64,000 bases of DNA. Origin: Methylococcus geothermalis. Lineage in GTDB: Bacteria > Pseudomonadota > Gammaproteobacteria > Methylococcales > Methylococcaceae. The translations under genes and the position numbers were made by a program. The stretch spans positions 2,308,501 through 2,372,500 of the forward strand of contig NZ_CP046565.1 of the NCBI RefSeq assembly GCF_012769535.1, read 5' to 3'. Numbering within the stretch: the stretch's first letter is position 1; each line of letters begins with the position of its first letter. Shown in pieces: positions 15,784 through 37,134 of this stretch. The notes under the pieces were generated by a model. It worked only from the letters and a program-made list of their open reading frames with translations, was not told the DNA's origin and made no database searches.

Positions 15784-16893
15784 TCAATAAAGCCGCCTTC
15801 GGAACATCCAGGCCGCCAGGAAGAGCGTCGCCAACCCGATCAACGCCATCGGCCAATATTGATCCAGCAGCAAGGACATCGGGATTCCTTCAAGCATGAC
15901 GCTGCGCACGATGACCAGGAAATAACGTAACGGATTCAGCAAAGTAAAGGTTTGCATGACCTCAGGCATGTTCGCGATGGGTGTGGCGAACCCCGACAGA
16001 ATGATGGACGGCACAATAAACAGAAAAGCACCCAGCAGTCCCTGTTGCTGAGTGGCGGCAAGGGACGAAATCATCAGGCCGGTGCCGACGGTCGCCGTCA
16101 CGAACAAGACGATACCCAGGTAAAGTGCAAAGACTTCCCCGACAAACGGTACGCTAAACCAATACACCGCCATCAGAAGGATGAAAGTGGACTCGACCAG
16201 ACCGATCAGAACGCCGGGGAGCGCCTTGCCGACGAGAATTTCCAGCGGTGTGAACGGCGTGACGAGGAGCTGGTCGAAGGTGCCCTGTTCCCGTTCGCGG
16301 GCCACCGACAGCGCCGTGACCAGCGTGGTCACCACCAGCGTCAGCAATCCGACGATGCCCGGCACGATGAACCATCGGCTGGTCAGATTGGGGTTGAACC
16401 AGGCGCGGATATCCAAACGGGTGGCGGGCAACGGGAGATGTTGTTGCTCCGCCCAGCGGCGGTTGAAGTCGGCCAGAATGGTTTGGGCGTAATTGAGGGC
16501 GATCAGGGCGGTGTTGGAATTGCGCCCGTCGATGACAAGCTGAACGCTGGCCGGTCGGCGGTTGGAAAGATCGCGGCTGAATTCGCGCCCGACATGCAAG
16601 ACCAGCAAGGCCTTTTTGGGATTGATGAACTCGGCGATGTCGGATTGCCGGGCAATCCGGCCCACCACGCGGAAGGCTCTGGCGCCGGCGAAACGGGCGA
16701 TCAGTTCGCGCGAGGCCGATCCCGTGTCCTCGTTATAGATGGCGATGGGCGCGCGATTGAGATCGAAGGTCGCCGCATAGCCGAACACCAGCAACTGGAT
16801 GATGGGTGGGCCGATCAGTACGAAACGGCTCTTCTTGTCCTTGAGCAGCGCCAGGAACTCCTTTTTCAGCGGTCCTAAGATCGCGCGCCACAT
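15784..16893 (-). CDS. ABC-2 type exporter permease (YbhR-like)
   Basis: A 369-residue inner membrane subunit. One helix lies near the N-terminus (VLIGPPIIQLLVFGYAATF), followed by a large periplasmic domain of about 140 residues and five helices in the C-terminal half. AREREQGTFDQLLVTP is the conserved ABC-2 motif that contacts the ATPase. It begins 4 nt after the upstream permease, as the last gene of a five-gene exporter unit. The pair corresponds to YbhS/YbhR. The substrate is unknown; YbhFSR systems export drugs or cations. Confidence 0.9.
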   Translation of the reverse strand: MWRAILGPLKKEFLALLKDKKSRFVLIGPPIIQLLVFGYAATFDLNRAPIAIYNEDTGSASRELIARFAGARAFRVVGRIARQSDIAEFINPKKALLVLHVGREFSRDLSNRRPASVQLVIDGRNSNTALIALNYAQTILADFNRRWAEQQHLPLPATRLDIRAWFNPNLTSRWFIVPGIVGLLTLVVTTLVTALSVAREREQGTFDQLLVTPFTPLEILVGKALPGVLIGLVESTFILLMAVYWFSVPFVGEVFALYLGIVLFVTATVGTGLMISSLAATQQQGLLGAFLFIVPSIILSGFATPIANMPEVMQTFTLLNPLRYFLVIVRSVMLEGIPMSLLLDQYWPMALIGLATLFLAAWMFRRRLY

Positions 16894-16897
16894 CGAC

Positions 16898-18049
16898 CTA
16901 CCCCAAGCGCCGGGGCATGCGGCGCGCGGCCAGCGTCAGAAAGACCGCCGCCATCGCTGCCAAGGCCAGGGCATTGGGGACGATCACCTCCCACACGTCG
17001 CCAGCCAGAAAGACGGTTTGCAGAATGGCGACGAAATAACGCGCCGCAATCAGGTAGGTGAAGGCCTGTACGGCGGCGGGCATGCTGCCGATGTCGAAAA
17101 TGAAGCCGGACAGGATGAAGGCCGGCAGGAAGGTGGCGATGATGGCCACTTGCCCGGCGACGAACTGGTTCTGGGCGACGATGGAGATGAAAAGCCCCAT
17201 TCCCAAGGCGGCCAATAGAAACAGCGTGCCGGTCGCCAGCAACACCCAGAGCGAGCCGCGCAGCGGAACGTCGAACAGATACAGGGCCATGCCGATCGAC
17301 AGGATCATGCCGCCCATTCCCAGCAAATAATAGGGCGCGAGCTTGCCGACCAGCACCTCGCCGACACTGACCGGGGTCGCCATCAGCGCCTCCAGGGTGC
17401 CGCGATCCCACTCGCGGGCCACGACCATCGCGGTCAGCAAGGCGCCGATCAGGGTCATGATCACCGCGATCAAGCCCGGAACCAGATAATCCCGGCTGCG
17501 CACGGCCGGATTGAACCAGATGCGCTGTTGCATCTGCACCGCCTGCATCGATGCCTGCGCGCGCTGGTCGGCCTGCCGGTTCAGCCATTGCGTCCATGCG
17601 CCCTGCAGATACCCCGAAACCAGGCGGGCGGTATTGGCGTCGACGCCGTCCAAGAGGACCTGAATCGGCGCCGTCTGCTTGTTCAAGGCTTGACGGGCAA
17701 AGTCGCCGCGCAAGTGCGCGATGGCGCTCACCTCCCGCCGGTCCAAGGCCTCCTGCGCCTTGCTCAGGTCAGGGAAATACGCCGGTTGGAAATACTCGGA
17801 GCGTTGTAGTCCCGCAAAAAAATCCGCCGTCTCTGGCCCCGGATTTTCGGCCACCAGGCCTATCCGTACATGCTTGGCGTCCAGCGAGACCCCGTAGCCG
17901 AATATGATCAGCAGCACGATAGGCAACAGGAAGGCGATGCCGATGCTGGAGGGATCGCGCCGGATCTGCAGAAATTCCTTGCGGATCAGACCCGCCAGAT
18001 GAAGCCGCCGGGCGGCCCGGCGGGGTAATGCGAAAGGTTCGGCATTCAT
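16898..18049 (-). CDS. ABC-2 type exporter permease (YbhS-like)
   Basis: A 383-residue permease, paralogous in layout to the next gene: an N-terminal helix (IAFLLPIVLLIIFGYGVSL), a long periplasmic loop, then a helix bundle with AREWDRGTLEALMATPVS as the coupling motif. Its start overlaps the stop of the double-ATPase gene (ATGA), so the two are translationally coupled. Two distinct permeases probably form the heterodimeric channel driven by the fused ATPase. Confidence 0.9.
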   Translation of the reverse strand: MNAEPFALPRRAARRLHLAGLIRKEFLQIRRDPSSIGIAFLLPIVLLIIFGYGVSLDAKHVRIGLVAENPGPETADFFAGLQRSEYFQPAYFPDLSKAQEALDRREVSAIAHLRGDFARQALNKQTAPIQVLLDGVDANTARLVSGYLQGAWTQWLNRQADQRAQASMQAVQMQQRIWFNPAVRSRDYLVPGLIAVIMTLIGALLTAMVVAREWDRGTLEALMATPVSVGEVLVGKLAPYYLLGMGGMILSIGMALYLFDVPLRGSLWVLLATGTLFLLAALGMGLFISIVAQNQFVAGQVAIIATFLPAFILSGFIFDIGSMPAAVQAFTYLIAARYFVAILQTVFLAGDVWEVIVPNALALAAMAAVFLTLAARRMPRRLG

Positions 18050-19815
18050 GGATGGGAGGATTCCGATTGTTCAAGCAACAGGATGAAGGCGTCTTCCAGG
18101 GTCGGGTTGGGCCGCTCGGGGCGAAGGGCCTTAGCGCGAATCTCCTGGGGCCGGCCGGCGGCGAGCAGGCTGCCCGCCGCCATGATCACCAGGCGGTCGC
18201 AATATTCGGCCTCTTCCATGAAGTGCGTGGTCACCAGCACGGTGACGCCCTGTTCCGCCAATACATTGATCGCCGACCAGAAGGCGCGGCGCATCAAGGG
18301 ATCGACGCCCGAAGTCGGTTCGTCGAGGAACAAAATCTCCGGTTCGTGCAGCAGGGCGCAGGCCAGCGCCAGGCGCTGTTTGTGCCCCAGTGGCAAGTCC
18401 CCGCTGGCGCTTTCGGCATAGGCCGTCAGCTGAAATTCCTTCAAGGCCCAATCCAGACGGACCCGCCGCTTCCCCTTGTCCAAGCGGTAGGCGCTGGCGA
18501 AAAATTCCAGATTCTGGCGGACGCTAAGAGCGCCATAGAGGGAGAACTTCTGCGACATGTAGCCAATCCGTCGCCTGGCCTCGGAGGCGGCGCTGCGCAG
18601 ATCGACGCCGGCGACGCGAAGTTGACCCCGGCTCGGCGGCAACAGTCCGCACAACATCCGGAAGGTGGTGGTCTTGCCGGCGCCGTTGGCGCCCAGGAGT
18701 CCGAAGACCTCGCCCCGCTTCACCTCGAAACTGATGCGCTTGACCGCCTGAAAAGCGCCGAACCAGCGCTCCACCTCCTGTACCTCGATCACCGATCCCT
18801 CTCGACCTAGCGGTTTGGATGAAGCCGATATGGCCCGCCCCAGGGCCACCGGCTCCACCAGGGGTTTGAGCCGGGTGATGAAACCGTCTTCGAAGCGGGG
18901 CTGCACGGGTGTAACGGTCAGCGCCGGGAACTCCGCGGCGAGATCATCGAGCTTTGGGGCTTGGGGCCGGACCGTCACCACCCGCACCGCATCTCCTTGA
19001 ATCACGGTATCGATCATCTCCGGACGTTCCTCCAGCCGGCTTTGCAGGCGGCGGGTAAGGTTTCCCGCGCCCCGGATTTCGTAACAGCGCCCCGCCAAGA
19101 GGGCGAGTTCCGCGTCGGGAGCGCCATGCCGCATCAGTTGTCCGGCATGGAGCATGAAAATCTCGCGACAGCGTTCGGCCTCGTCCAGATAGGCGGTACT
19201 CATCAGCACGGTGGCGCCGCTCTCCACCATCGCCTCGATGATGACCCAAAGCTCGCGCCGCGACACCGGATCGACGCCCACCGTCGGTTCATCCAGCAGC
19301 AACAGCCGTGGCCTGGCCACCAACGTGCAGGCCAACCCCAGCTTTTGCTTCATGCCGCCGGACAACTTCCCTGCCAGTCGGTCCCGAAAAGAAACCAACT
19401 TGGTCATCTCCAACAGTTCATGGAACCTCCCCGCCCTGAGGCAGGAGGGGACGCCGTGCAGATCGGCATACAAGTCGAGGTTCTCCTGCACCGTCAGGTC
19501 TTCATAAAGGCCGAATCGCTGCGGCATGTAACCGGTGATGGCATGGACGGCGTCCGGCTGCGCTACCGGATCCAGGCCGAATACCGAGATCGCGCCGCGA
19601 TCCGGGGCCAGCAAACCGGCGATCAGGCGCAACAAGGTCGTTTTCCCCGCCCCGTCCGGCCCGATCAGCGCGCTGACGGCGCCGGTCCGAATGCTCAGCG
19701 TGACGCCTTCAAGCGCCGTCATCTGTCGCCGGCCCACGGTAAAGCGTTTGCCGATGCCGGTCGCTTCCACGGCAACAGCCGCGTCCTTTTCCGTCGAAGG
19801 CGGCGCCTTCGTCAT
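18046..19815 (-). CDS. Exporter ATPase with two fused ABC domains (YbhF-like)
   Basis: A 589-residue cytoplasmic protein with tandem ATP-binding domains. Domain 1 has Walker A GPDGAGKTT (residues 52-60), signature LSGGMKQKLGLA and Walker B LLLLDEPTVGVDP. Domain 2 has GANGAGKTTTFRM, a degenerate signature LPLGHKQRLALA and ILFLDEPTSGVDP. That non-canonical second signature is, from memory, normal for YbhF-type proteins. The frame extends upstream to 20127 within the HlyD gene, but the ATG at 19815 overlaps the HlyD stop by 4 nt and is the natural start. Confidence 0.93.
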   Translation of the reverse strand: MTKAPPSTEKDAAVAVEATGIGKRFTVGRRQMTALEGVTLSIRTGAVSALIGPDGAGKTTLLRLIAGLLAPDRGAISVFGLDPVAQPDAVHAITGYMPQRFGLYEDLTVQENLDLYADLHGVPSCLRAGRFHELLEMTKLVSFRDRLAGKLSGGMKQKLGLACTLVARPRLLLLDEPTVGVDPVSRRELWVIIEAMVESGATVLMSTAYLDEAERCREIFMLHAGQLMRHGAPDAELALLAGRCYEIRGAGNLTRRLQSRLEERPEMIDTVIQGDAVRVVTVRPQAPKLDDLAAEFPALTVTPVQPRFEDGFITRLKPLVEPVALGRAISASSKPLGREGSVIEVQEVERWFGAFQAVKRISFEVKRGEVFGLLGANGAGKTTTFRMLCGLLPPSRGQLRVAGVDLRSAASEARRRIGYMSQKFSLYGALSVRQNLEFFASAYRLDKGKRRVRLDWALKEFQLTAYAESASGDLPLGHKQRLALACALLHEPEILFLDEPTSGVDPLMRRAFWSAINVLAEQGVTVLVTTHFMEEAEYCDRLVIMAAGSLLAAGRPQEIRAKALRPERPNPTLEDAFILLLEQSESSHP

Positions 19816-20855
19816 GGGGACTTGCAGTAATCCGACAATGAAGCGGGAGGCGTGCGAGTTTCCCCGTTCAGGAGAAGCGTGACGGTGGCGGGCATGCCGA
19901 GCCGCAATTCCTGATCGGGATCGCAGGTATAGACGCGCGCCTGGTAAACCAGGCTGGTGCGCAACTCCGGTGTTTCGACGGCTTTGGGGGTAAACTCGGC
20001 GACCGGGGAAATATAACCGACCCAACCACGATAGGATTTGCCCGGATAGCTGTCGGTGGTGATGCGGGCCGGCAGCCCTAAACGGATCTTGCCCAGGTCG
20101 GATTCGTTCACGTAAGCGCGGCACCACTTAGGATCGGTAAGCGCCAGCGTGAACACCGGACTGTTGGCCGTGACCACGGCGCCAGGCTCCAGGATGCGGG
20201 TGCGGATGACGCCGGCCGTGGGCGCCTTCAGCGTGGCGCGCCCGAGACGGTAACGGAGCAGCGCCAGATTGGCGCGCTGCGCCTCGACTTCCGCGCGTTG
20301 CTGATCCAGCTGCTCCCGGCGAGTCCCTTCCAACAGCAAGGCCAGATCCTCGCGCGCCTTCTTCAGGTCCGCTTCGGCCACGAGGCGCTCGGCATTCGTC
20401 GTGTCTGCCTCTTCCCTCGAAGCGGCGCGTTCGTGCGCGTCGATCAAACTCACGCGCCGGCTATGGATCAGAGCAGCGTTCGCCAGCGCGGCCTCGGCGG
20501 CCTGCACGGTGGCACGCCCCCGCTCGATTTCTTGCGGTCTGGGTCCATGAACCCCTTCGGCCAGTCGCGCCTCGGCCAGTTTCAGCGTCGCTTCGGCGGC
20601 CTGAACGGCGTCCAGGAAGGCATCCTGCTCTAGAATCGCCAGCGTCTGCCCGGCTTCCACGCGGTCGCCTTCCTCCACCAGAACCTGGTCGATCGGGCCG
20701 TCGACGCCGAATCCCAAGTCGACCTCGCGAATGTCCATGTTGCCGTAAAGCGTCAATTCGCTTGCGGAATCGCCACCGGTCTTCCACGGCCAGTAGGCCG
20801 CCGCGAGGCCGGTGCTCAAAGCACACAAACCGAACAGGAGAATCTTCTTTTTCAC
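19812..20855 (-). CDS. HlyD-family periplasmic adaptor (YbhG-like)
   Basis: A 347-residue membrane fusion protein that bridges inner and outer membrane parts of the exporter. An N-terminal signal anchor (ILLFGLCALSTGLAAAYW) is followed by a lipoyl half-motif (VDGPIDQVLVEEGDRVEAG), a coiled-coil hairpin from about residue 75 to 205, and the second lipoyl half (LKAPTAGVIRTRILEPGAVV). A GTG at 20855 with GGGAG 5 nt upstream gives the compact start. An ATG at 20888 would add 11 residues but has no ribosome site. Confidence 0.9.
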   Translation of the reverse strand: MKKKILLFGLCALSTGLAAAYWPWKTGGDSASELTLYGNMDIREVDLGFGVDGPIDQVLVEEGDRVEAGQTLAILEQDAFLDAVQAAEATLKLAEARLAEGVHGPRPQEIERGRATVQAAEAALANAALIHSRRVSLIDAHERAASREEADTTNAERLVAEADLKKAREDLALLLEGTRREQLDQQRAEVEAQRANLALLRYRLGRATLKAPTAGVIRTRILEPGAVVTANSPVFTLALTDPKWCRAYVNESDLGKIRLGLPARITTDSYPGKSYRGWVGYISPVAEFTPKAVETPELRTSLVYQARVYTCDPDQELRLGMPATVTLLLNGETRTPPASLSDYCKSP

Positions 20856-20916
20856 ATGAACTCCCTTGAACTCGTCATGGAAAGTCATTCAGGAAGGGGG
20901 CGACAGAAACATTCGC

Positions 20917-22521
20917 TTACCGCGGGGGCTGGTCTGCGCGCGCACCGTCTTCCGGCGACTGCCAGCCGCCGCCCAGCGCTTTGTAAAGCGCCACCAGATC
21001 CGCCGCCAGCGTGCTCGTGCTGTTGGCGTAATCCTGTTCCGCCTGAAGAAGCGTGCGTTGGGCGTCCAACACTGGCAGGAAGTTGGAAATCCCTGCGCGG
21101 TACCGGCGCCGCGCGAGATCCAGCGTCTGTCGGCTCGATTGCACGGACTGGTTCAGCGCATCGTTTCGCCGTTGCTCGTCGGCATAGGCCGTCAAGGCGT
21201 TGTCCACCTCGTGCCAGGCCAGCAGCACCGTGTTGTGGTAGACGATGGCGGCTTCCTGTTGCTGGGCTTCGCGCAGTTCCAGGGTGGCTTTGAGCCGTCC
21301 GCCCTCGAAAATCGGCAGGGTGATGCTTGGCCCCAGCGCATATTGCCGGGCCGCCCAATTGCCGAGATCCTTGAACTGCAGAGCCTGCATTCCGACGCTG
21401 CCGGACAGAGTAATGCGCGGATAGAAATCGGCGACCGCCACGCCGATATCGGCCGTCGCCGCATGCAGTTGCGCCTCGGCCTGGCGGATGTCGGGCCGGC
21501 GCCGCGCCAATTCCGATGGCAGACCGATGGGGACGCGTGGGGGAACGGGCGGCACCGGACGCGGCGCCGTCAGCTCGGTCTGCAATGCTCTCGGCGGCTC
21601 GTCCAGCAACAAACCGAGCTGGTTGACGGCCTGCGCCGATTGTTGGTCAAGCTGAGGAATCTGCGCCTGAATATTGGCGAGCTGCGTCCGCGCCTCGGCG
21701 ACCTCAAGATCGTTCACCAGGCCGCTCTCCGCCCGCTGCTCCGTCAGTGTGAGGCTTTCTTGTGCCAAAACCGCGTTCTCCCGTGTGAGGGTCAACAACC
21801 GCTGGACCCGGCGTAGTTCGATGTAATCGCGCGCCACCTCCGCCATGACGGAAATCAGCAAATCCCGCTGCGCCTCGCCGGAGGCCTCGACGCTGGCATC
21901 GGCGGACTCGACTTCACGGCGAACCCGTCCCCAAAGATCCAGCTCCCAGGACGCATCAAAGCCGTACTGCCAGAGGTTGAACGGTTTGATGTTGGCCGCA
22001 GGCGCGGCGATCACCCCGATGCCGGTCCCATTCGCGGCGGCGCCCAAGCCCGCTCCGCTCGCCGCGCTGGCGGTGGAGCCGCCGCCCAGGAGACTGCTCA
22101 TGATGCTGAAGACGCCTTTTTCGCTCGGCTTGGCGCGGGTATAGGAGGCATTGCCGCGCAGTAAAGGGAACTGGTCGGCGGCGGCGATGCCGCGCTGTGC
22201 CCGGCTCTGGGTCAGCCTGAGCGCGGCGGTGCGAAGCGAAAGGTTGGCTTTTGCCGCCCGTTCCTCCAATGAAGTCAGCACCGGATCATTGAATGCTCGC
22301 CACCAGGTCGCATCCATCGGTCCGGTCACCACCCGGCTCGGCAGTTGCGTAAACGCCGGGTTCGAGCGGATGGGCGAGGCGGACCAGCTCGGCGGCGCGA
22401 GGGCTTTCGGTTGCTCGAAATCCGGCCCCACCGCGCATCCACAAAGACTCAGCGCAAACAGCCAATGAAGTCCTTTGAACCAAGATTCTGTTGAACCTTT
22501 ATTATCAGACAAGAGATTCAC
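20917..22521 (-). CDS. Outer membrane efflux lipoprotein (NodT/OprM family)
   Basis: A TolC-type outer membrane channel of about 530 residues, the first gene of the ABC exporter unit. The signal peptide ends in the lipobox LCGC before AVGPDFEQP, typical of NodT proteins. Two repeated efflux domains follow, with WELDLWGRVRREVESA and LPSELARRRPDIRQAEAQL as family motifs, and LYKALGGGWQ at the C-terminus. A Gly/Ala/Ser-rich stretch near SSLLGGGSTASAASGAG is an unusual insert. The frame opens at 22740, but the hydrophobic signal begins only after the GTG at 22521, so that or the TTG at 22512 is the likely start; neither has a strong ribosome site. Confidence 0.85.
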   Translation of the reverse strand: MNLLSDNKGSTESWFKGLHWLFALSLCGCAVGPDFEQPKALAPPSWSASPIRSNPAFTQLPSRVVTGPMDATWWRAFNDPVLTSLEERAAKANLSLRTAALRLTQSRAQRGIAAADQFPLLRGNASYTRAKPSEKGVFSIMSSLLGGGSTASAASGAGLGAAANGTGIGVIAAPAANIKPFNLWQYGFDASWELDLWGRVRREVESADASVEASGEAQRDLLISVMAEVARDYIELRRVQRLLTLTRENAVLAQESLTLTEQRAESGLVNDLEVAEARTQLANIQAQIPQLDQQSAQAVNQLGLLLDEPPRALQTELTAPRPVPPVPPRVPIGLPSELARRRPDIRQAEAQLHAATADIGVAVADFYPRITLSGSVGMQALQFKDLGNWAARQYALGPSITLPIFEGGRLKATLELREAQQQEAAIVYHNTVLLAWHEVDNALTAYADEQRRNDALNQSVQSSRQTLDLARRRYRAGISNFLPVLDAQRTLLQAEQDYANSTSTLAADLVALYKALGGGWQSPEDGARADQPPR

Positions 22522-22705
22522 TAAAAAATGATGCCGATTGTTCTCAGCTGCGATGGCGAAAATTAGAGTTCTATTATATGTCTGAACTTTCGAAAGCCTG
22601 TCAGCACAAAACCGCGCACTTTCAGGCTTTTGCCTGGATTCGACTTGTGCGTACCAGTCTGGCGGGATTGAATCCCTGAATCGATACCGAGCGACCTTAC
22701 CCGGT

Positions 22706-24775
22706 TCATGGAATCGCTCCCAGAACAGCCAAGGTGGCACCGACTGCCAGGACGAAGGCGGGATGCCATGTGAAGCGGATGAGCAAGACCATCGCCACGG
22801 CCATGAGGAGTAGCGCCCTCCACGAAGGGATGGCGGAATGCCAGAGCAGCAAGGCAGCGGAGGCTATCAAGCCCACGACGGTTGGAGCCACAGCGGCCAG
22901 GAAGTCCTGTGCCTGTGACGAAGTTTTGAGGCGTTCGTAGGCAATACAGATAACCGCCATAAGAATCATGGCGGGGGTCAAAAGAGCCACGGTAGCCAGC
23001 AAGGCTCCGGAAACTCCCAGCAGGTGGTAACCGGCAAAGGTCGCAAGAACGGCGATGGGCCCCGGCGTGAGGTTGCTGATGGCTACACCGTCCAGGAATT
23101 CCTGCGGCGTCAGCCAATGGAGATGCTCAACGAGTTGCTGGTGCAGAACCGGGATGAGAACAAAACCGCCACCGAAAAAGACCAGGCCGATCTTCAGGAA
23201 GGTCAGACCCACCGTGGCAAACGAAGCTGAGCCAACATTTGCGCCCAGTGAAGGGAAGGCCAGGAATGCCATGGCGCCTGTTTTCGGAGAAGATGGTTCT
23301 TCAGTATTGGCATTCGACTGCTTCGGCTCCGATCCCTTCACCAAGCGTTTTCGCCCTACCAGAAGCCCGACGATGCCTGCCGTCAGGAGTACCCAGATGG
23401 CGTTCACCTTGCAGGCACCCGTCACAACGCCCGCCACAGCAAACACCACGGCGGGCCAGCCGGTCAAAACTCTGCGGCCCATTGACCACGCCGCGGCGAG
23501 TATGAGCGCTATCACCACAGGCCCCAGGCCCACCAGAACTCCCTGCAAAGCAGGGATGGCGTGATAACGTGAGTATAAAAATGAAAGGAAGATTACGATC
23601 GTTACGGAAGGCAGCAGGAATGCCGCCACTGAGACCAAGGCACCGAATAAGCCATAGTGCCGGTAACCCAAAAAGAATACCGTATTGGGAGCAAAGGACC
23701 CGAGAATTTCAGCCAAGCCGACAGCATGAAGAAATTCTTCTGCTGGAAGCTGCCGTCGCTTCTGAACAAATTCCTGCTCCAGGATCGCGATCACGGCCAT
23801 GCTTCCACCAAAACCGATGGCACCGATCTTAAGAAAAAGCCCCAGCATGCTCGGCAGAGACAGTGGGGCTGCTGTGGATCGATCCGCCTCGGCCATCCGG
23901 CTGTGAGAGCTTTCCACCTCATGAAACCGGCTGTAATCGATCGAACGCTCGCCATCAGGGGCGATCGACAGAATATCGACGAATTTCCCACCCCAACGGA
24001 TATCGGCTGCGCCATATGATTTATGGGCCTGGATCGTCTGCAACATCGTTTCATTCAGTCCGCTGAAGGAGACGAGAATCGCGCAATCATTGAGCGTTTC
24101 GGGGGTGCGGCCGTAGAACGGGCTGGATTCGTCGATGACATGCATCACGGTCCAGCTCAGCGCCAAGATCGGCGCACGGTCCCGGACTAATTTCAGGTCG
24201 TGACAATGAAGGAAATCGTCACCCGCCTTCGAGACTTCATTGAGAAATATGAGACTCATGCGAACGGACGGTTCGACGATCAGGTCATGGCGCTTGTTCG
24301 CCACGCGAATCATAAACGTGGTCACACCATTAAACGGGCCAATGACGGCCACATCGCTGAACAATAAACACGGCCTTGGCCGCGAGAAGCGCGCAAACAT
24401 CAGGCCGGTGGCCATGGCGAAACCCAGCATCCCCGCCAGAACCTCCGTCATCGACACGATATGGCTGTAAAGCGTGTTCGGGCTCATGATGCCGTAACCG
24501 ACGGTCGCCATGGTCTCAACGCTGAAGAAGAATGCGTCGCTGAAAGAGCCGGGGCGCGCGTTTAGTATCCCGTTCCCGTCCGCGAGATAGGCCAAAGCAA
24601 ACAGAGCGTTTGCCCCCAGATAAAGGGCGATCAGGACTGCAAAAAAACCCGGCCAAGACAGGGTCAGCGCCATGTGATAGACGTCATGCCACCGGTATCG
24701 GGGTAAACCCAGTCGGGATACCTGCACGCTGCCGATCTGGATGTGCGGAGTTTTTTTGCCGGATGCCGATTTCAT
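22706..24775 (-). CDS. KirBac-type potassium channel fused to a two-domain chromate (CHR) transporter
   Basis: One uninterrupted 689-residue frame. Residues 1-290 are a complete inward-rectifier channel: a slide-helix region, outer helix (about 43-64), pore with selectivity filter TVGYG (91-95), inner helix, FARFSRPRPCLLFS, then the cytoplasmic Kir domain with LSWTVMHVIDESSPFYG, ending at IDYSRFHEVE. After a short linker, residues 306-480 and 515-689 are two CHR domains, each starting with an FLKIG...FGG motif, with NLTPGPIAVLATFAGY in the second. A normal ChrA is about 390 residues, so both partners look complete. An internal Met294 (23896) might allow separate synthesis of the transporter part. 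I know of no standard family with this order. Confidence 0.88.
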   Translation of the reverse strand: MKSASGKKTPHIQIGSVQVSRLGLPRYRWHDVYHMALTLSWPGFFAVLIALYLGANALFALAYLADGNGILNARPGSFSDAFFFSVETMATVGYGIMSPNTLYSHIVSMTEVLAGMLGFAMATGLMFARFSRPRPCLLFSDVAVIGPFNGVTTFMIRVANKRHDLIVEPSVRMSLIFLNEVSKAGDDFLHCHDLKLVRDRAPILALSWTVMHVIDESSPFYGRTPETLNDCAILVSFSGLNETMLQTIQAHKSYGAADIRWGGKFVDILSIAPDGERSIDYSRFHEVESSHSRMAEADRSTAAPLSLPSMLGLFLKIGAIGFGGSMAVIAILEQEFVQKRRQLPAEEFLHAVGLAEILGSFAPNTVFFLGYRHYGLFGALVSVAAFLLPSVTIVIFLSFLYSRYHAIPALQGVLVGLGPVVIALILAAAWSMGRRVLTGWPAVVFAVAGVVTGACKVNAIWVLLTAGIVGLLVGRKRLVKGSEPKQSNANTEEPSSPKTGAMAFLAFPSLGANVGSASFATVGLTFLKIGLVFFGGGFVLIPVLHQQLVEHLHWLTPQEFLDGVAISNLTPGPIAVLATFAGYHLLGVSGALLATVALLTPAMILMAVICIAYERLKTSSQAQDFLAAVAPTVVGLIASAALLLWHSAIPSWRALLLMAVAMVLLIRFTWHPAFVLAVGATLAVLGAIP

Positions 24776-24881
24776 CCTGCGCCTTCATCCAATGGGGTAT
24801 GCGTCGGCCCGCATCCGGGCATGGTGGATTTGCATGCCGCCGGATGGCGCTGCGGTTGTTACGGACATTTCAGGTTTTTTC

Positions 24882-24938
24882 TCATCGGATTTTTTTAATA
24901 TTCTCGACATCATGATACCGACTGTAATCGATCGAACC
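24882..24938 (-). pseudogene. C-terminal relic of a second Kir channel gene (in the 454-nt gap 24776-25229)
   Basis: Reading the minus strand, this stretch encodes GSIDYSRYHDVENIKKIR and a stop. GSIDYSRYHDVE matches the end of the intact Kir domain (RSIDYSRFHEVE), and the DNA is clearly similar to about 23920-23955. No channel core precedes it. The rest of the gap shows only an inverted repeat (25085-25108) and no gene I can support. Confidence 0.6.
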
Positions 24939-25084
24939 TATTTTCCTCATCTTCTTCCCGCTGCTGTCCGGCCCGTCCGTGCCGGCAGAGGTCCGTTTCC
25001 CCGTCGTATCGGCCTAGCGCGCCCGCTTCATCACCTGGACCTGCATGAATCTTGCCTACCTACTGGATCAGTAACGTTGGGCTG

Positions 25085-25108
25085 GTTCTGGACACCGAAG
25101 TCCAGAAC
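25085..25108. repeat. Perfect 9-bp inverted repeat
   Basis: GTTCTGGAC (25085-25093) and GTCCAGAAC (25100-25108) flank a 6-nt loop between the porin gene and the Kir relic. Neither strand has a T-run after it, so it is reported as a hairpin or operator-like repeat rather than a terminator. Confidence 0.45.
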
Positions 25109-25229
25109 GGCAAGGCCGATTTCTTCGACAGCGGATTCATTCGATTTCCATTTAATTTACAAAGCGGCGCGGTTCGATGGGCGGGGAATACAAGATGTGA
25201 TCCCGGTTCGCGGCCAAAGGCTGCTGGCG

Positions 25230-26603
25230 TCAGAAAGTCACGATCACATCGGCGGAAAACAGGAATTGGTCCGAGCGTTTTCCCGCATCGAAAATCTTGA
25301 TGTTGTCGGACCAGTCATAGCGGGCGTTGGGGCGCAAGGTGACCCAGTTCAGAGGTTTCCAGTTCAAGCCCAACGTCAGCGCGTAATACCCGCTGCCCTG
25401 AAACGGATAGACCGTGGAAAAATCCGGATTGCAGGCATAGGGCCGCGCGGCTCCGGCGCCGTTGCCATTCATGCTCCCGCTGCAGCGCGGCGGTCCGGAG
25501 ACGCGAAAACCGTTGTTGTCCCGCCACCATTCGGCACGCAGGCCGACCGACCAGTGTTCCTCCAGCGCATAGGTCAGCCACTGGGCAATGCCGTACCACT
25601 GGGCATTTTCCAGCTTCCCACCGTTGCGGTCGTAATTGGCGGTCTGCACCTGATCCGCGAAGCCATGGGTGTGCTCGATGACATAATGCAGCGTGTTGTC
25701 CAGGAAGCCGGTCTTGCCCACCAGGCTATATACCGCCCAAAGGTCGCCGAACCGTTCGGAACGCCCCCCCGCCATCGAGGTCAGGTTGAGTGAATCGCTC
25801 TTGTCGTCGCTGGTCCAGGCTGCACCGCCCAGGAAATCCCAATTGCCGAGCTGCTGATCCCAGCCGCCGTCGCCGCCGCCGGTGGCGCTGCCGGTCACCG
25901 CGCCGGCCGAGACCGCCCAGTTGGCAGCGACCGCGTAACTGGAAAGAATGCCGGTATGGGTGAAGGGATTGAATTGGAAGGTATAAGGCTTGGTGATGAA
26001 AAAGTTGTCCGGCGCGGTGACCATTTCATAGCCCAGCGGAGTGTAGAAATGGCCGGCCTTGACGCTGAGGCCGCTGCCGAGGGGCAGATTGAATTCGGCA
26101 TATGCCTGAGGTAGAGCGATGCCGTAGAAGCGGTCCGACCAGCTCGCAAGATGGAGGTCCCAATGTCCCCGATTCAGCGGCCGCCCGGTTCTCGGATCGA
26201 CATAGGGGATGCCGTACGCCTGGGTGAAAATGGAATCGGTACCGTACACGAAATCGAAACGGCCACCGACATCCCACTCGTCGGAACTGACCACGACCGC
26301 ACGCTCCAGAAACAGATAGAACTGGTTCATCTGGAGTTCGCCGGTACGGTCGTTGAACGAAACGGGACCATTGAAGTTGTCCGCCGGACTGCTTGCGTTA
26401 TAGGTCACGCTGGCATTCAACCACCCTCCCAGACGGATGCCTGCACGCTGCATCCAGGCGCTGCCGTTCACATCGGCACCGACATGCTCCAGCAGGCCCG
26501 ACGCATTGACCTGGGCCATCGCGAGGGGACATGCCAGGAATAAGATCGCCGTGGCGATACGGTTTCGAGCCCAGGGGCACAGCCTCTTCAGCGCCAGACG
26601 CAT
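25230..26603 (-). CDS. Outer membrane beta-barrel protein (OmpL-like porin, BBP2 type)
   Basis: A 457-residue exported protein. The signal peptide (ATAILFLACPLAMA) is cleaved near residue 30. The mature part alternates hydrophobic and polar residues with many Trp, Tyr and Asn, and ends with FLFSADVIVTF, the terminal Phe of outer membrane barrels. Motifs such as AGIRLGGWLNASVTYN, GRFDFVYGTD and KAGHFYTPLGYE fit the putative beta-barrel porin-2 family. It is upstream of the Kir-ChrA gene on the same strand, 454 nt away. The substrate is unknown. Confidence 0.85.
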   Translation of the reverse strand: MRLALKRLCPWARNRIATAILFLACPLAMAQVNASGLLEHVGADVNGSAWMQRAGIRLGGWLNASVTYNASSPADNFNGPVSFNDRTGELQMNQFYLFLERAVVVSSDEWDVGGRFDFVYGTDSIFTQAYGIPYVDPRTGRPLNRGHWDLHLASWSDRFYGIALPQAYAEFNLPLGSGLSVKAGHFYTPLGYEMVTAPDNFFITKPYTFQFNPFTHTGILSSYAVAANWAVSAGAVTGSATGGGDGGWDQQLGNWDFLGGAAWTSDDKSDSLNLTSMAGGRSERFGDLWAVYSLVGKTGFLDNTLHYVIEHTHGFADQVQTANYDRNGGKLENAQWYGIAQWLTYALEEHWSVGLRAEWWRDNNGFRVSGPPRCSGSMNGNGAGAARPYACNPDFSTVYPFQGSGYYALTLGLNWKPLNWVTLRPNARYDWSDNIKIFDAGKRSDQFLFSADVIVTF

Positions 26604-33916: not shown

Positions 33917-34229
33917 ATCGCTTCGCCAAGGGAAGTACGCTTCGTTCCTCTGAAATAGCCCGTCGCCACGAGCCGGAGAAGTTCATTCGAGCAGTTCACG
34001 ATAGCCTTGACGTCTTGGTTGAAATTTCGAGGGATGGCTCGACACCGTCGAAGGCTTAAGGCATGCTTGAGTCGTGTTGCGGGCCAAGGCATCAGGAACC
34101 GGTCATCCCGAATCAGCCACGGGCTGAAGCCCGCTCCCGCGCGCGCTTCGCCCAAGTGTGCGTGGTGGATGCCGCCAACCGATCAGCGATCATTTCCAGG
34201 ACCTTGACTCAGGCAGGATTCCGTACAGG

Positions 34230-35825
34230 ATGGAACCCAGAATCGATGCATTCAAATCCGCCGGAATCCGGCTGCTTCTGATCCTTCCGGCACTTCTTGC
34301 CGCTGGCTGCACCAATAAGATCGGGCCGGACTACCAGACCCCCGAAACCCAGGTATCGCCCGACTGGCTCGAAAGCGACGACTCTCGGGTCTCCAAAAAG
34401 GAGGGCAATTTCCGCGAATGGTGGCGGGTGTTCAAGGACCCTGTCCTGAATCAACTCGTGGAAACCGCTTATTCGCAGAATCTCCCGCTCCAAATCGCCG
34501 CCGTCCGCGTCCTGGGTTCGCGCGCGGAACTGGGCGTCGCGACCGGCAATCTGTTCCCGCAGAGCCAGGGCTTCCAAGGCCAGACCGAAAAAATCAGCCT
34601 GCCTTTCCTCCGGGATCTGGGGCTGGGAAGTGGCGACAGTCTCTGGTACACCCGCATCGGCGTCATGTCGAACTGGGAAATCGACATATGGGGCAAGTAC
34701 CGCCGGGCCATCGAGTCGGCCGATGCGCAGTTGATGGCCTCCGTCGCCGAATACGACGACATCCTGGTCACCCTCACCGCCGACGTGGCCAACACCTATG
34801 TGCAGATCCGGACCCTGGAAAAGCGTTTGGACATCGCCCAACAGAACGTCAAGACCCAGAGCGAGAGCCTGCGCATCGCCGATGCCAAGTTCCACGGCGG
34901 CACCAGCACCCAGCGCGACGTGGAGCAGGCGAAGACCGTGCTCGCCAGCACCCAGGCCACCATCCCGGTGCTGGAAGGACAGATTCGGCAGGCAAAAAAC
35001 ACGCTGTGCTACTTGCTGGGCATGCCGCCCAACAAGCTCGACAAGCCCTTGGGGTCGGAAGACCGGTTCGGCAAGATTCCGGCCCCGCCGGTCCAGGTCG
35101 CCGTCGGCATTCCCGTCGATCTGCTGCGGCGGCGCCCGGACGTGCGCCGCGCGGAACAGAGCGCCGCGGCGCAATCGGCCCGCATCGGCATCGCCAAGGC
35201 GTCGCTCTATCCGGCCTTCTCGATCAGCGGCAGCTTCGGCTTCGTCTCCACCAATTCCCAGGGCCATAGCCTGGGCGACCTGTTCAACTGGGGCCAGCAC
35301 TTCTACCGCTTCGGGCCCTCGGTGCAGTGGAACCTGTTCAATTACGGCCAGCTCACCAATCAGGTCCGGGCCCAGGACGCCCGCTTCCAGGAGCTCGCAC
35401 TGAGTTACCAGAACACGGTGCTGAAGGCGCAGCAGGAGGCCGAGAGCGCGTTGATCGGCTTCCTCAAAACCCAGAATTCCGCGGAGTTCCTGGCGGAGAG
35501 CACCGCCGCCGCCCAGCGCTCGCTGGATCTGGCCACGCTGCAGTACCGCGAAGGCATCACCGATTTCACCACCGTGCTGACCGCGGAGCAGGATCTGCTC
35601 AAACAGCAGGACAATTTCGCCCAGACCCTCGGCAGCATCGCCACCCATCTGGTCGGCGTCTACCGCACCCTGGGCGGCGGCTGGCAAATTCGCGAAGGCA
35701 AGGACTTCGTGCCCGAACCGATTCAGGCAGCCATGGCCGAGCGGACCAACTGGGGCGATCTGTTGAAGCCGGGGGCAGTGCCCGCAGCGCCGCCATCCAG
35801 CCTCATCCGGGCACCGGACTGGTGA
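34230..35825 (+). CDS. Outer membrane efflux lipoprotein (NodT/OprM family) of an RND system
   Basis: A 531-residue TolC-type channel. The signal peptide ends with the lipobox LAAGC, followed by TNKIGPDYQTPE. The two efflux repeats carry SNWEIDIWGKYRRAIESADA and IPVDLLRRRPDVRRAEQS, and the C-terminus has YRTLGGGWQIREG. The frame opens at 34158, but the ATG at 34230 places the signal peptide correctly. It is the first gene of a tripartite RND operon with the adaptor and pump behind it. Confidence 0.92.
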   Translation: MEPRIDAFKSAGIRLLLILPALLAAGCTNKIGPDYQTPETQVSPDWLESDDSRVSKKEGNFREWWRVFKDPVLNQLVETAYSQNLPLQIAAVRVLGSRAELGVATGNLFPQSQGFQGQTEKISLPFLRDLGLGSGDSLWYTRIGVMSNWEIDIWGKYRRAIESADAQLMASVAEYDDILVTLTADVANTYVQIRTLEKRLDIAQQNVKTQSESLRIADAKFHGGTSTQRDVEQAKTVLASTQATIPVLEGQIRQAKNTLCYLLGMPPNKLDKPLGSEDRFGKIPAPPVQVAVGIPVDLLRRRPDVRRAEQSAAAQSARIGIAKASLYPAFSISGSFGFVSTNSQGHSLGDLFNWGQHFYRFGPSVQWNLFNYGQLTNQVRAQDARFQELALSYQNTVLKAQQEAESALIGFLKTQNSAEFLAESTAAAQRSLDLATLQYREGITDFTTVLTAEQDLLKQQDNFAQTLGSIATHLVGVYRTLGGGWQIREGKDFVPEPIQAAMAERTNWGDLLKPGAVPAAPPSSLIRAPDW

Positions 35826-35928
35826 GGCCGGCACCCTCGCAAGCCTCATGACTCAAGACCTCGCGGCGAGCGCCTCCTCACACGGTCCCGCCGCCGCTAC
35901 CGGAAACGACTTCAGGGAGACTCTTCCA

Positions 35929-37134
35929 GTGATTCGCACGACTCTTTGCCGCTCGGGGACTCCATGGCGAGCGCTTATCGGTACGGGCACGTCCATGCTG
36001 CTGCTGGCTTCCGCCGGCTGCGAGAAACCCAACACCTACGTGCCGCCGCCGGCACCGAAAGTGATCGTCAGCCAGCCGGTCGAAGGCCCGGTCACGCCTT
36101 ACCTCGAGTTCACCGGCAACACCCAGGCGATCAAGACCGTGGAACTCCGGGCCCGCGTCGAGGGCTACCTGGAAAAAATCCTGTTCCGGGAAGGCGAAAT
36201 CGTCAAGGAAGGGCAGTTGCTGTTTCTGATTCAGCGGAACACTTACGAGGCCAAACTGAAGGAGGCCAAAGCGCAAGTGCTGGCGGACAAAGCCCGCCTG
36301 ATGCATGCCGAAACCGAGTTCGCCCGTTTCTCCGGACTGCTCAAGCAGAACGCCGCGGCCCAGACCGACGTCGACAAATGGCATTACGAGCGGGATTCCG
36401 CGCAGGCCGCCGTCATGGCCTCGGAGGCCAACGTGGACCTGGCCCAGCTCAATCTGAGCTATACCGAGGTCAGGGCGCCCTTCAACGGCCGCGCCGGCCG
36501 CCGCCTCGAGGATCCCGGCAACCTGGTCGGCGCCGGCGAGAAAACCGTATTGGCCGAGATCAACCAGATCGACCCGATCTATGCCTATTTCACGATCAGC
36601 GAGCAGGACTTGCTGAGAGTCCGGGGGAGGCGCCAGAATGAAGCAGCGAACCCCCGGACGCCCGACGTGCCGATCTTTCTGGGCCTCGCCAACGAGGACG
36701 GCTACCCGCACCAAGGCAAGCTCGACTTCGCCGGCATCCGGCTGGACCCCACCACCGGCACCCTGCTGCTGCGCGCCGTCTTTCCGAACCCCGATTACGC
36801 CATTCTTCCCGGCCTGTTCGCCCGCCTCAAGGCCCCGGTCGACGCGGCCCAGTCCGCGCTGCTGATCCCGGTGGAAGCCATCAGCTACGACCAGATCGGC
36901 CCTTACGTGCTCGTGGTCAACGACAAGAATCTGGTCGAACGGCGCACCATCACCACCGGCCCGCCTTCCGGCCGCATGATGTCGGTCAGCGACGGCTTGA
37001 AGAACAGCGACTGGATCGTCACCGACGGCCTGCTGCGCGCCATTCCGGGCAAGGAAGTGGCGCCCGTCCGGCAGCCGCTGCCCGCCGCCGCGGCAAGCGA
37101 CACCGGTGAGCCGGCGGGAGCACCCGCCCGATGA
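35929..37134 (+). CDS. RND efflux periplasmic adaptor (membrane fusion) lipoprotein
   Basis: A 401-residue adaptor. A GTG at 35929 with GGGAGA 8 nt upstream is the best start and gives a signal peptide with the lipobox LASAGC. An ATG at 35848 would add 27 residues ahead of the signal. The halves of the lipoyl domain (RARVEGYLEKILFREGEIV and YTEVRAPFNGRAGRRL) flank an alpha-helical hairpin. The C-terminal beta domains end in a Pro/Ala tail. Its stop overlaps the pump start (ATGA). Confidence 0.92.
   Translation: MIRTTLCRSGTPWRALIGTGTSMLLLASAGCEKPNTYVPPPAPKVIVSQPVEGPVTPYLEFTGNTQAIKTVELRARVEGYLEKILFREGEIVKEGQLLFLIQRNTYEAKLKEAKAQVLADKARLMHAETEFARFSGLLKQNAAAQTDVDKWHYERDSAQAAVMASEANVDLAQLNLSYTEVRAPFNGRAGRRLEDPGNLVGAGEKTVLAEINQIDPIYAYFTISEQDLLRVRGRRQNEAANPRTPDVPIFLGLANEDGYPHQGKLDFAGIRLDPTTGTLLLRAVFPNPDYAILPGLFARLKAPVDAAQSALLIPVEAISYDQIGPYVLVVNDKNLVERRTITTGPPSGRMMSVSDGLKNSDWIVTDGLLRAIPGKEVAPVRQPLPAAAASDTGEPAGAPAR

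Follow-up and report, generated by a model that had tools for sequence, protein, structure and literature searches.

A KirBac-type potassium channel continuous with a chromate-type transporter in one open reading frame of Methylococcus geothermalis

Our analysis of the window, by which we mean the whole stretch of 64,000 nucleotides, indicates that a KirBac-type potassium (Kir) channel and a transporter of the chromate (CHR) family are encoded there in a single open reading frame of 689 amino acids, on the minus strand at 22706-24775. The Kir-CHR joint in the sequence is real; both component families are already known, and their join is new to the literature searched. Our best reading is that the fusion is restricted to its lineage, and it is known from one genome. 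As to function, we tentatively favor a channel and transporter acting as one protein, in which an exporter of chromate or a similar oxyanion would be given a counter-charge path by the K+ channel, at what we judge to be a little less than an even chance. A fuller proposal is rather doubtful as a whole: that a Kir pore carries four anion exporters on a single type of chain and supplies them with charge balance or a gate, that this arrangement is older than the split between the locus in the window's genome (G000) and that in a relative of the same family (G070), and that the only copy still intact is the one in the window, with relics left of two others.

The frame opens with ATG and runs through 689 codons with zero internal stops in the list of open reading frames. 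Compared with its own genome, the fused protein returns one unbroken match (query 1-689, open frame 692, stops 0), and this ORF is its sole match there. The first-pass annotation had placed it correctly, the minus strand being our addition, and had described a full Kir channel with its filter and complete cytoplasmic domain, running without a stop into two CHR domains, with both halves of normal family size; family searches bear this description out. In the Kir half (amino acids 1-293; 23897-24775, minus), with its two transmembrane helices, pore and cytoplasmic domain, Pfam places the transmembrane part, IRK, at amino acids 27-133 (24.8 bits against a cut-off of 22.7), Ion_trans_2 at 66-130 (41.2 against 22.5) and the cytoplasmic IRK_C at 137-294 (91.3 against 22.5), while a motif search puts the selectivity filter TVGYG at amino acids 91-95 (24491-24505, minus). 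The closest PDB entry to this half by sequence is KirBac3.1 (amino acids 14-291, best E 1.3e-80), which is also matched by fold. The CHR half (amino acids 294-689 plus the stop; 22706-23896, minus) consists of two CHR repeats: Chromate_transp (PF02417) matches in two stretches at 256.8 bits against 28.6, and the NCBIfam chromate efflux transporter TIGR00937 at amino acids 314-682 with 220.6 bits against 171.7. The ChrA/ChrB equivalogs NF053760 and NF053759 score 101.4 and 109.2 bits, both under their cut-off of 250, so we do not file the CHR half as either equivalog subtype; a PDB search by sequence gave it zero relatives at E up to 1. Judged on the sequence, two full-length domain matches of such strength in one frame exclude chance. 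Two pmoA/amoA-type genes in the same genome point to a methane oxidizer as the host. Scans of 22300-25300 for promoters (0 sites against 1.5 expected) and for terminator-like sites (5 against 3.5 expected) were uninformative.

In an AlphaFold2 model of the fused protein (mean pLDDT 83.7, pTM 0.54) both halves are folded, and pLDDT falls below 50 only at amino acids 292-301 of the linker and in the loop 482-514. The linker, amino acids 292-306 (23858-23902, minus), leads into predicted CHR helices at 307-480 and 519-684, which the low-confidence loop separates; the model of the CHR half rests mainly on three close rows of the underlying alignment, 19 of whose 22 CHR rows were aligned poorly, partly over the Kir half. 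The list of fold matches to the model was filled by the Kir half, and chains of the KATP channel Kir6.2 were included in it.

Constraint on the Kir half can be read from its only close relative, the unfused Kir of G070 (locus L002), which is 83% identical over 289 residues and ends after 315 amino acids. Between the two, dN is 0.094 and dS 0.603, and the resulting dN/dS of 0.16, a pairwise value for the Kir half only that averages both branches, implies purifying selection on that half; differences at the three codon positions number 39, 19 and 85. When the amino-acid changes are polarized by three outgroup rows, the fused branch takes 9 and the unfused one 8, with 32 left unassigned, so the Kir of the fused branch has not evolved faster. 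It keeps 39 of the 43 columns conserved in 90% of the other Kir rows, departing at 135, 164, 189 and 241, inside the range of 0-7 departures in the 24 other rows; R189L is a change at a well-kept position. GYG is present in 23 of these 24 rows. The exception, locus L113 of genome G994, is a Kir homologue without the TxGYG filter and is perhaps of the NirBac type as given in the available part of PMC4607889.

Of the 34 columns conserved in 90% of the other rows, 4 are changed in the CHR half, inside the range of 0-9 in 20 other rows; F599L and G628A lie at positions kept in nearly all relatives, and P360S likewise at a conserved place. Its 396 codons are free of stops and frameshifts. The CHR motif is printed as GGX12VX4WX16PGPX10GX7G in PMC2751784; the part GGX12VX4WX16PGP occurs once in the CHR half, in the second repeat, and the printed tail spacing of the full motif fits 0 of 21 CHR rows. 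The first repeat has GGX12V and neither the W nor the PGP, as in loci L031-L032. Among the adjoining genes, no chromate genes were recognized. Taken together, both halves are probably functional. The claim of the first-pass annotation that this is a two-function protein rather than a broken gene is thus strengthened as regards the gene, since both halves are conserved, the joint frame is open and purifying selection acts on the Kir half; that the halves work jointly is an interpretation which we discuss below.

How did the two come to be joined? Downstream, the window and G070 are collinear over about 7 kb at 80-82% DNA identity. In both genomes a gene for a NodT-type outer-membrane efflux lipoprotein follows (20917-22440, minus, in the window; named from sequence, without a family search), and in L002 it stands directly after Kir, while an oxidoreductase-rhodanese gene precedes Kir without a gap. 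Between the Kir and NodT-type genes of L002 lies a scar of 68 bases, 54 of which agree with the beginning of the CHR half in the window (E 1.5e-11), with the protein reading GAIGFGGGTAVIAIMKRESAQK against GAIGFGGSMAVIAILEQEFVQK; from this it follows that G070 once had a CHR gene behind Kir and then lost it. The NodT-type gene of G070 starts in frame inside this scar (L002 2415-2482), and the N-terminal stretch of its protein seems to be a CHR remnant. Directly upstream of the fusion, the window carries a relic of another Kir/CHR copy at 24843-24937 (minus), the C-terminal end of a Kir and, behind it, a region like the start of CHR. Over 95 bases it is 87% identical to L002, and its Kir end runs into a stop in the present frame. 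Next to it, at 24776-24844 (minus), comparison with L002 reveals what is left of the oxidoreductase-rhodanese gene's 3' end, and the two relics are joined at a short shared sequence. An intact oxidoreductase orthologue, 85% identical, lies about 150 kb away in the window's genome with no Kir or CHR gene adjoining.

The scar in L002 and the Kir-end/CHR-start relic of the window establish that Kir and CHR were neighbors in an ancestor. They suggest, moreover, that the fusion derives from such a neighboring pair, adjacent before the fusion arose or when it did, and we read the upstream relics as a trace of an ancestral unit of oxidoreductase end, Kir and CHR that would have been duplicated in tandem and, on one occasion, largely lost. 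The frame at the joint differs between the two relics: the L002 Kir frame meets no stop up to the CHR-like start region, ahead of the deletion point, while the window's relic is stopped. The G+C content is 0.56 in the Kir half and 0.58 in the CHR half against 0.66 in the NodT-type gene, and the 5 further genomes of its genus yielded no real Kir, a combination that fits either transfer or loss. The closest CHR found is a free-standing transporter of 406 amino acids from an uncultured Desulfobacterium (L031), 67% identical. A donor among the Desulfobacterota was considered and set aside: L031's genome yielded no IRK_C in a profile search that returned no match whatever, IRK_C occurs in 5 of 395 Desulfobacterota genomes in open frames of 302-341 amino acids, none fused, and across 85 genomes of L031's order every CHR match except that of L031 itself stays at or below 34% identity. 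We also rejected a tblastn match to L031 beginning at residue 274 as homology reaching into Kir, because it passes through a stop ahead of the ATG of that gene, an artefact of extension. Beyond the NodT-type gene, the stretch 15784-20888 (minus) carries ORFs for an HlyD-like protein, a double ABC ATPase and two ABC-2-type permeases; it is collinear with G070, at a DNA identity of about 80-82%. At 34158-37134 (plus) a second NodT-like gene precedes one for an RND-type membrane fusion protein. All of these are named from sequence.

We searched widely for a second fusion. The first-pass annotation was aware of no described system of this type, and in the literature searched, most subscription papers lying outside it, no Kir-CHR fusion is described. 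Its suggestion of looking for the same domain order in databases yielded no second fusion among the genomes sampled. Among 301 genomes of the order, 223 had some match to the fused protein, and of the matches listed only that of G000 covers amino acids 1-689; 13 other genomes are listed with Kir matches, in open frames of 254-411 amino acids. A real Kir is present in 5 of 38 genomes of the family including G000, whose Kir alone is fused. IRK_C was found in 16 of 398 genomes of a phylum sample (open frames 300-440 amino acids, against 692 in G000) and in 4 of 350 of a class sample, where the three besides G000 have frames of 317-330; 369 class genomes compared with the fused protein gave no second fusion among the matches listed. 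These order, family, phylum and class samples overlap and are drawn from larger groups. Of 72,556 plasmids, 351 records match the fused protein and 0 cover 80% of it. Elsewhere, then, no listed Kir match sits in an open frame longer than 440 amino acids, and none is a Kir-CHR fusion.

Nor do the two genes recur as neighbors. A species-wide scan with six peptide patterns, which reaches close relatives only, gave 22 loci (L031-L052), all of them matching the CHR part only, from residue 274 or later, and none with a Kir beside the CHR gene. A recurring Kir-CHR partnership was rejected from the Kir side too, with CHR near Kir in 0 of 31 other Kir loci: 0 of 26 with wider flanks, some shortened by contig ends (L081-L106), and 0 of 5 with flanks of about 1.5 kb (L121-L125); neither the Kir fragment of L015 nor any of the Kir loci L107, L109 and L113 enters into this count. 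The condition that the first-pass annotation had named as arguing against a functional fusion, relatives with two separate genes and no fused version, therefore has a mixed outcome, as no fused relative was found and no intact separate pair either. Four Rokuibacteriota records (L037, L038, L040, L041) show two CHR-like matches in succession on one strand, which may be CHR genes in a pair or in tandem.

Which other readings of the open frame must be weighed? That a sequencing or assembly error near 23880 hides a stop or frameshift, a concern of the first-pass annotation, is now disfavored and in our estimate very improbable. There is a single genome, with no second copy for comparison, and the closest relatives of this site are either unfused or relics; against an error, the genome is one contig of 3,371,031 bases with completeness 100 and contamination 0.21, which makes a draft-assembly artefact unlikely, and the linker differs from both relics in many bases and in length, so that a single error would not yield the relic form. 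A neutral or decaying fusion, in which a stop was mutated away after duplication and one half is kept while the other is being lost, as CHR was in L002, accords with the scarred region, where the Kir/CHR and oxidoreductase relics lie directly upstream, with the deletion of CHR in G070 and with the absence of Kir from the other genomes of the genus. We regard it as unlikely, given a CHR half that has kept all its codons open while remaining as close as it does to the free-standing L031 transporter, few departures at conserved sites and no excess of changes in Kir.

More serious, though still somewhat unlikely in our view, is the production of two proteins from the one ORF, through a start also at Met294 or cleavage of the linker, so that channel and transporter act apart. 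The Met294 codon (23894-23896, minus), a possible ancestral or still-used CHR start, lies at the family-typical beginning of CHR proteins, near which L031 and other rows begin; a Shine-Dalgarno-like GAGGTGG upstream of it reaches -7.3 kcal/mol in pairing with the anti-Shine-Dalgarno sequence, on a par with the top 5% of sites in the ORF and stronger than the Met1 site (-3.5), and the linker is predicted by the model to be disordered. However, at least 15 bases separate GAGGTGG from Met294, which is far from the usual optimum for a Shine-Dalgarno sequence, and with no stop between the halves the long product would also be made if Met1 is used. Alternatively, the Kir part could be a regulator, its cytoplasmic domain sensing anionic lipid, pH or a ligand and gating the CHR transporter. 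The IRK_C domain is complete and placed directly before the transporter, and KirBac activity responds to acidic pH and anionic lipids according to the available part of PMC4607889; but the TVGYG filter and pore are intact, so conduction looks selected for, the model predicts a flexible linker, and we consider this reading distinctly improbable.

We return to the preferred reading, the channel-transporter acting as one protein. KirBac channels assemble as tetramers, and by analogy the Kir half should do so as well. The product would then be a single membrane protein, a KirBac-type K+ channel subunit followed by a linker of about 15 residues and a long-chain CHR anion transporter, and a Kir tetramer would hold four transporter units round one channel. 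In each subunit the Kir part would have its N-terminus in the cytoplasm, cross the membrane with two helices and end in an immunoglobulin-like domain in the cytoplasm. The cytoplasmic domain of KirBac proteins ends inside the cell, so the CHR part must begin inside; we estimate that 15 residues, if extended, span up to about 50 Å, enough in principle to regain the membrane. The N-terminus of Pseudomonas ChrA is reportedly inside by experimental topology. For Shewanella ChrA, TMHMM predicts an N-terminus outside, according to the available part of PMC5699817, and this, if so, speaks against the fusion. The transporter would export chromate or a similar oxyanion. Compensating charge may find a path through the K+ channel, which would also keep the membrane potential inside-negative; CHR proteins are driven by proton motive force, going by the title of a reference listed in the available part of PMC8940164. 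Balancing the charge of an anion exporter with K+ is our preferred mechanism, held with low confidence. Against joint working stand the occurrence in one genome only, the lack of a recurring partnership, the departures at conserved sites, the pTM of 0.54 and the want of adjoining chromate genes.

If one polypeptide does have both activities, it would be a ready system for studying how a K+ leak aids electrogenic anion export, what drives CHR proteins and what role KirBac channels play, a role in bacteria called less well defined in the available part of PMC4607889. If the fusion is instead neutral, it documents well how the genes of a two-gene unit become fused and lost. Among known systems, the unfused Kir of G070 has the same downstream genes and a CHR scar at the same place, its CHR gene having been deleted. 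Known KirBac proteins of the IRK-C family, such as KirBac3.1 and KirBac1.1, end after the cytoplasmic domain, whereas the fused protein adds a transporter of about 400 amino acids. Like the long-chain CHR proteins (LCHR, ChrA-like; TIGR00937, PF02417 twice), it has two repeats, normal size and a score above the cut-off; it differs from them in an N-terminus covalently joined to a K+ channel and in P360S, F599L and G628A. KATP channels, in which Kir6 combines with SUR, are alike in working only, as a Kir pore complexed with a transporter-type protein, and SUR is a distinct polypeptide, an ABC protein unrelated to CHR. If the fuller proposal of a Kir pore carrying four exporters is true, the fused protein would resemble the KATP channel in design, as a bacterial counterpart in which the Kir pore and the transporter-type protein are paired covalently.
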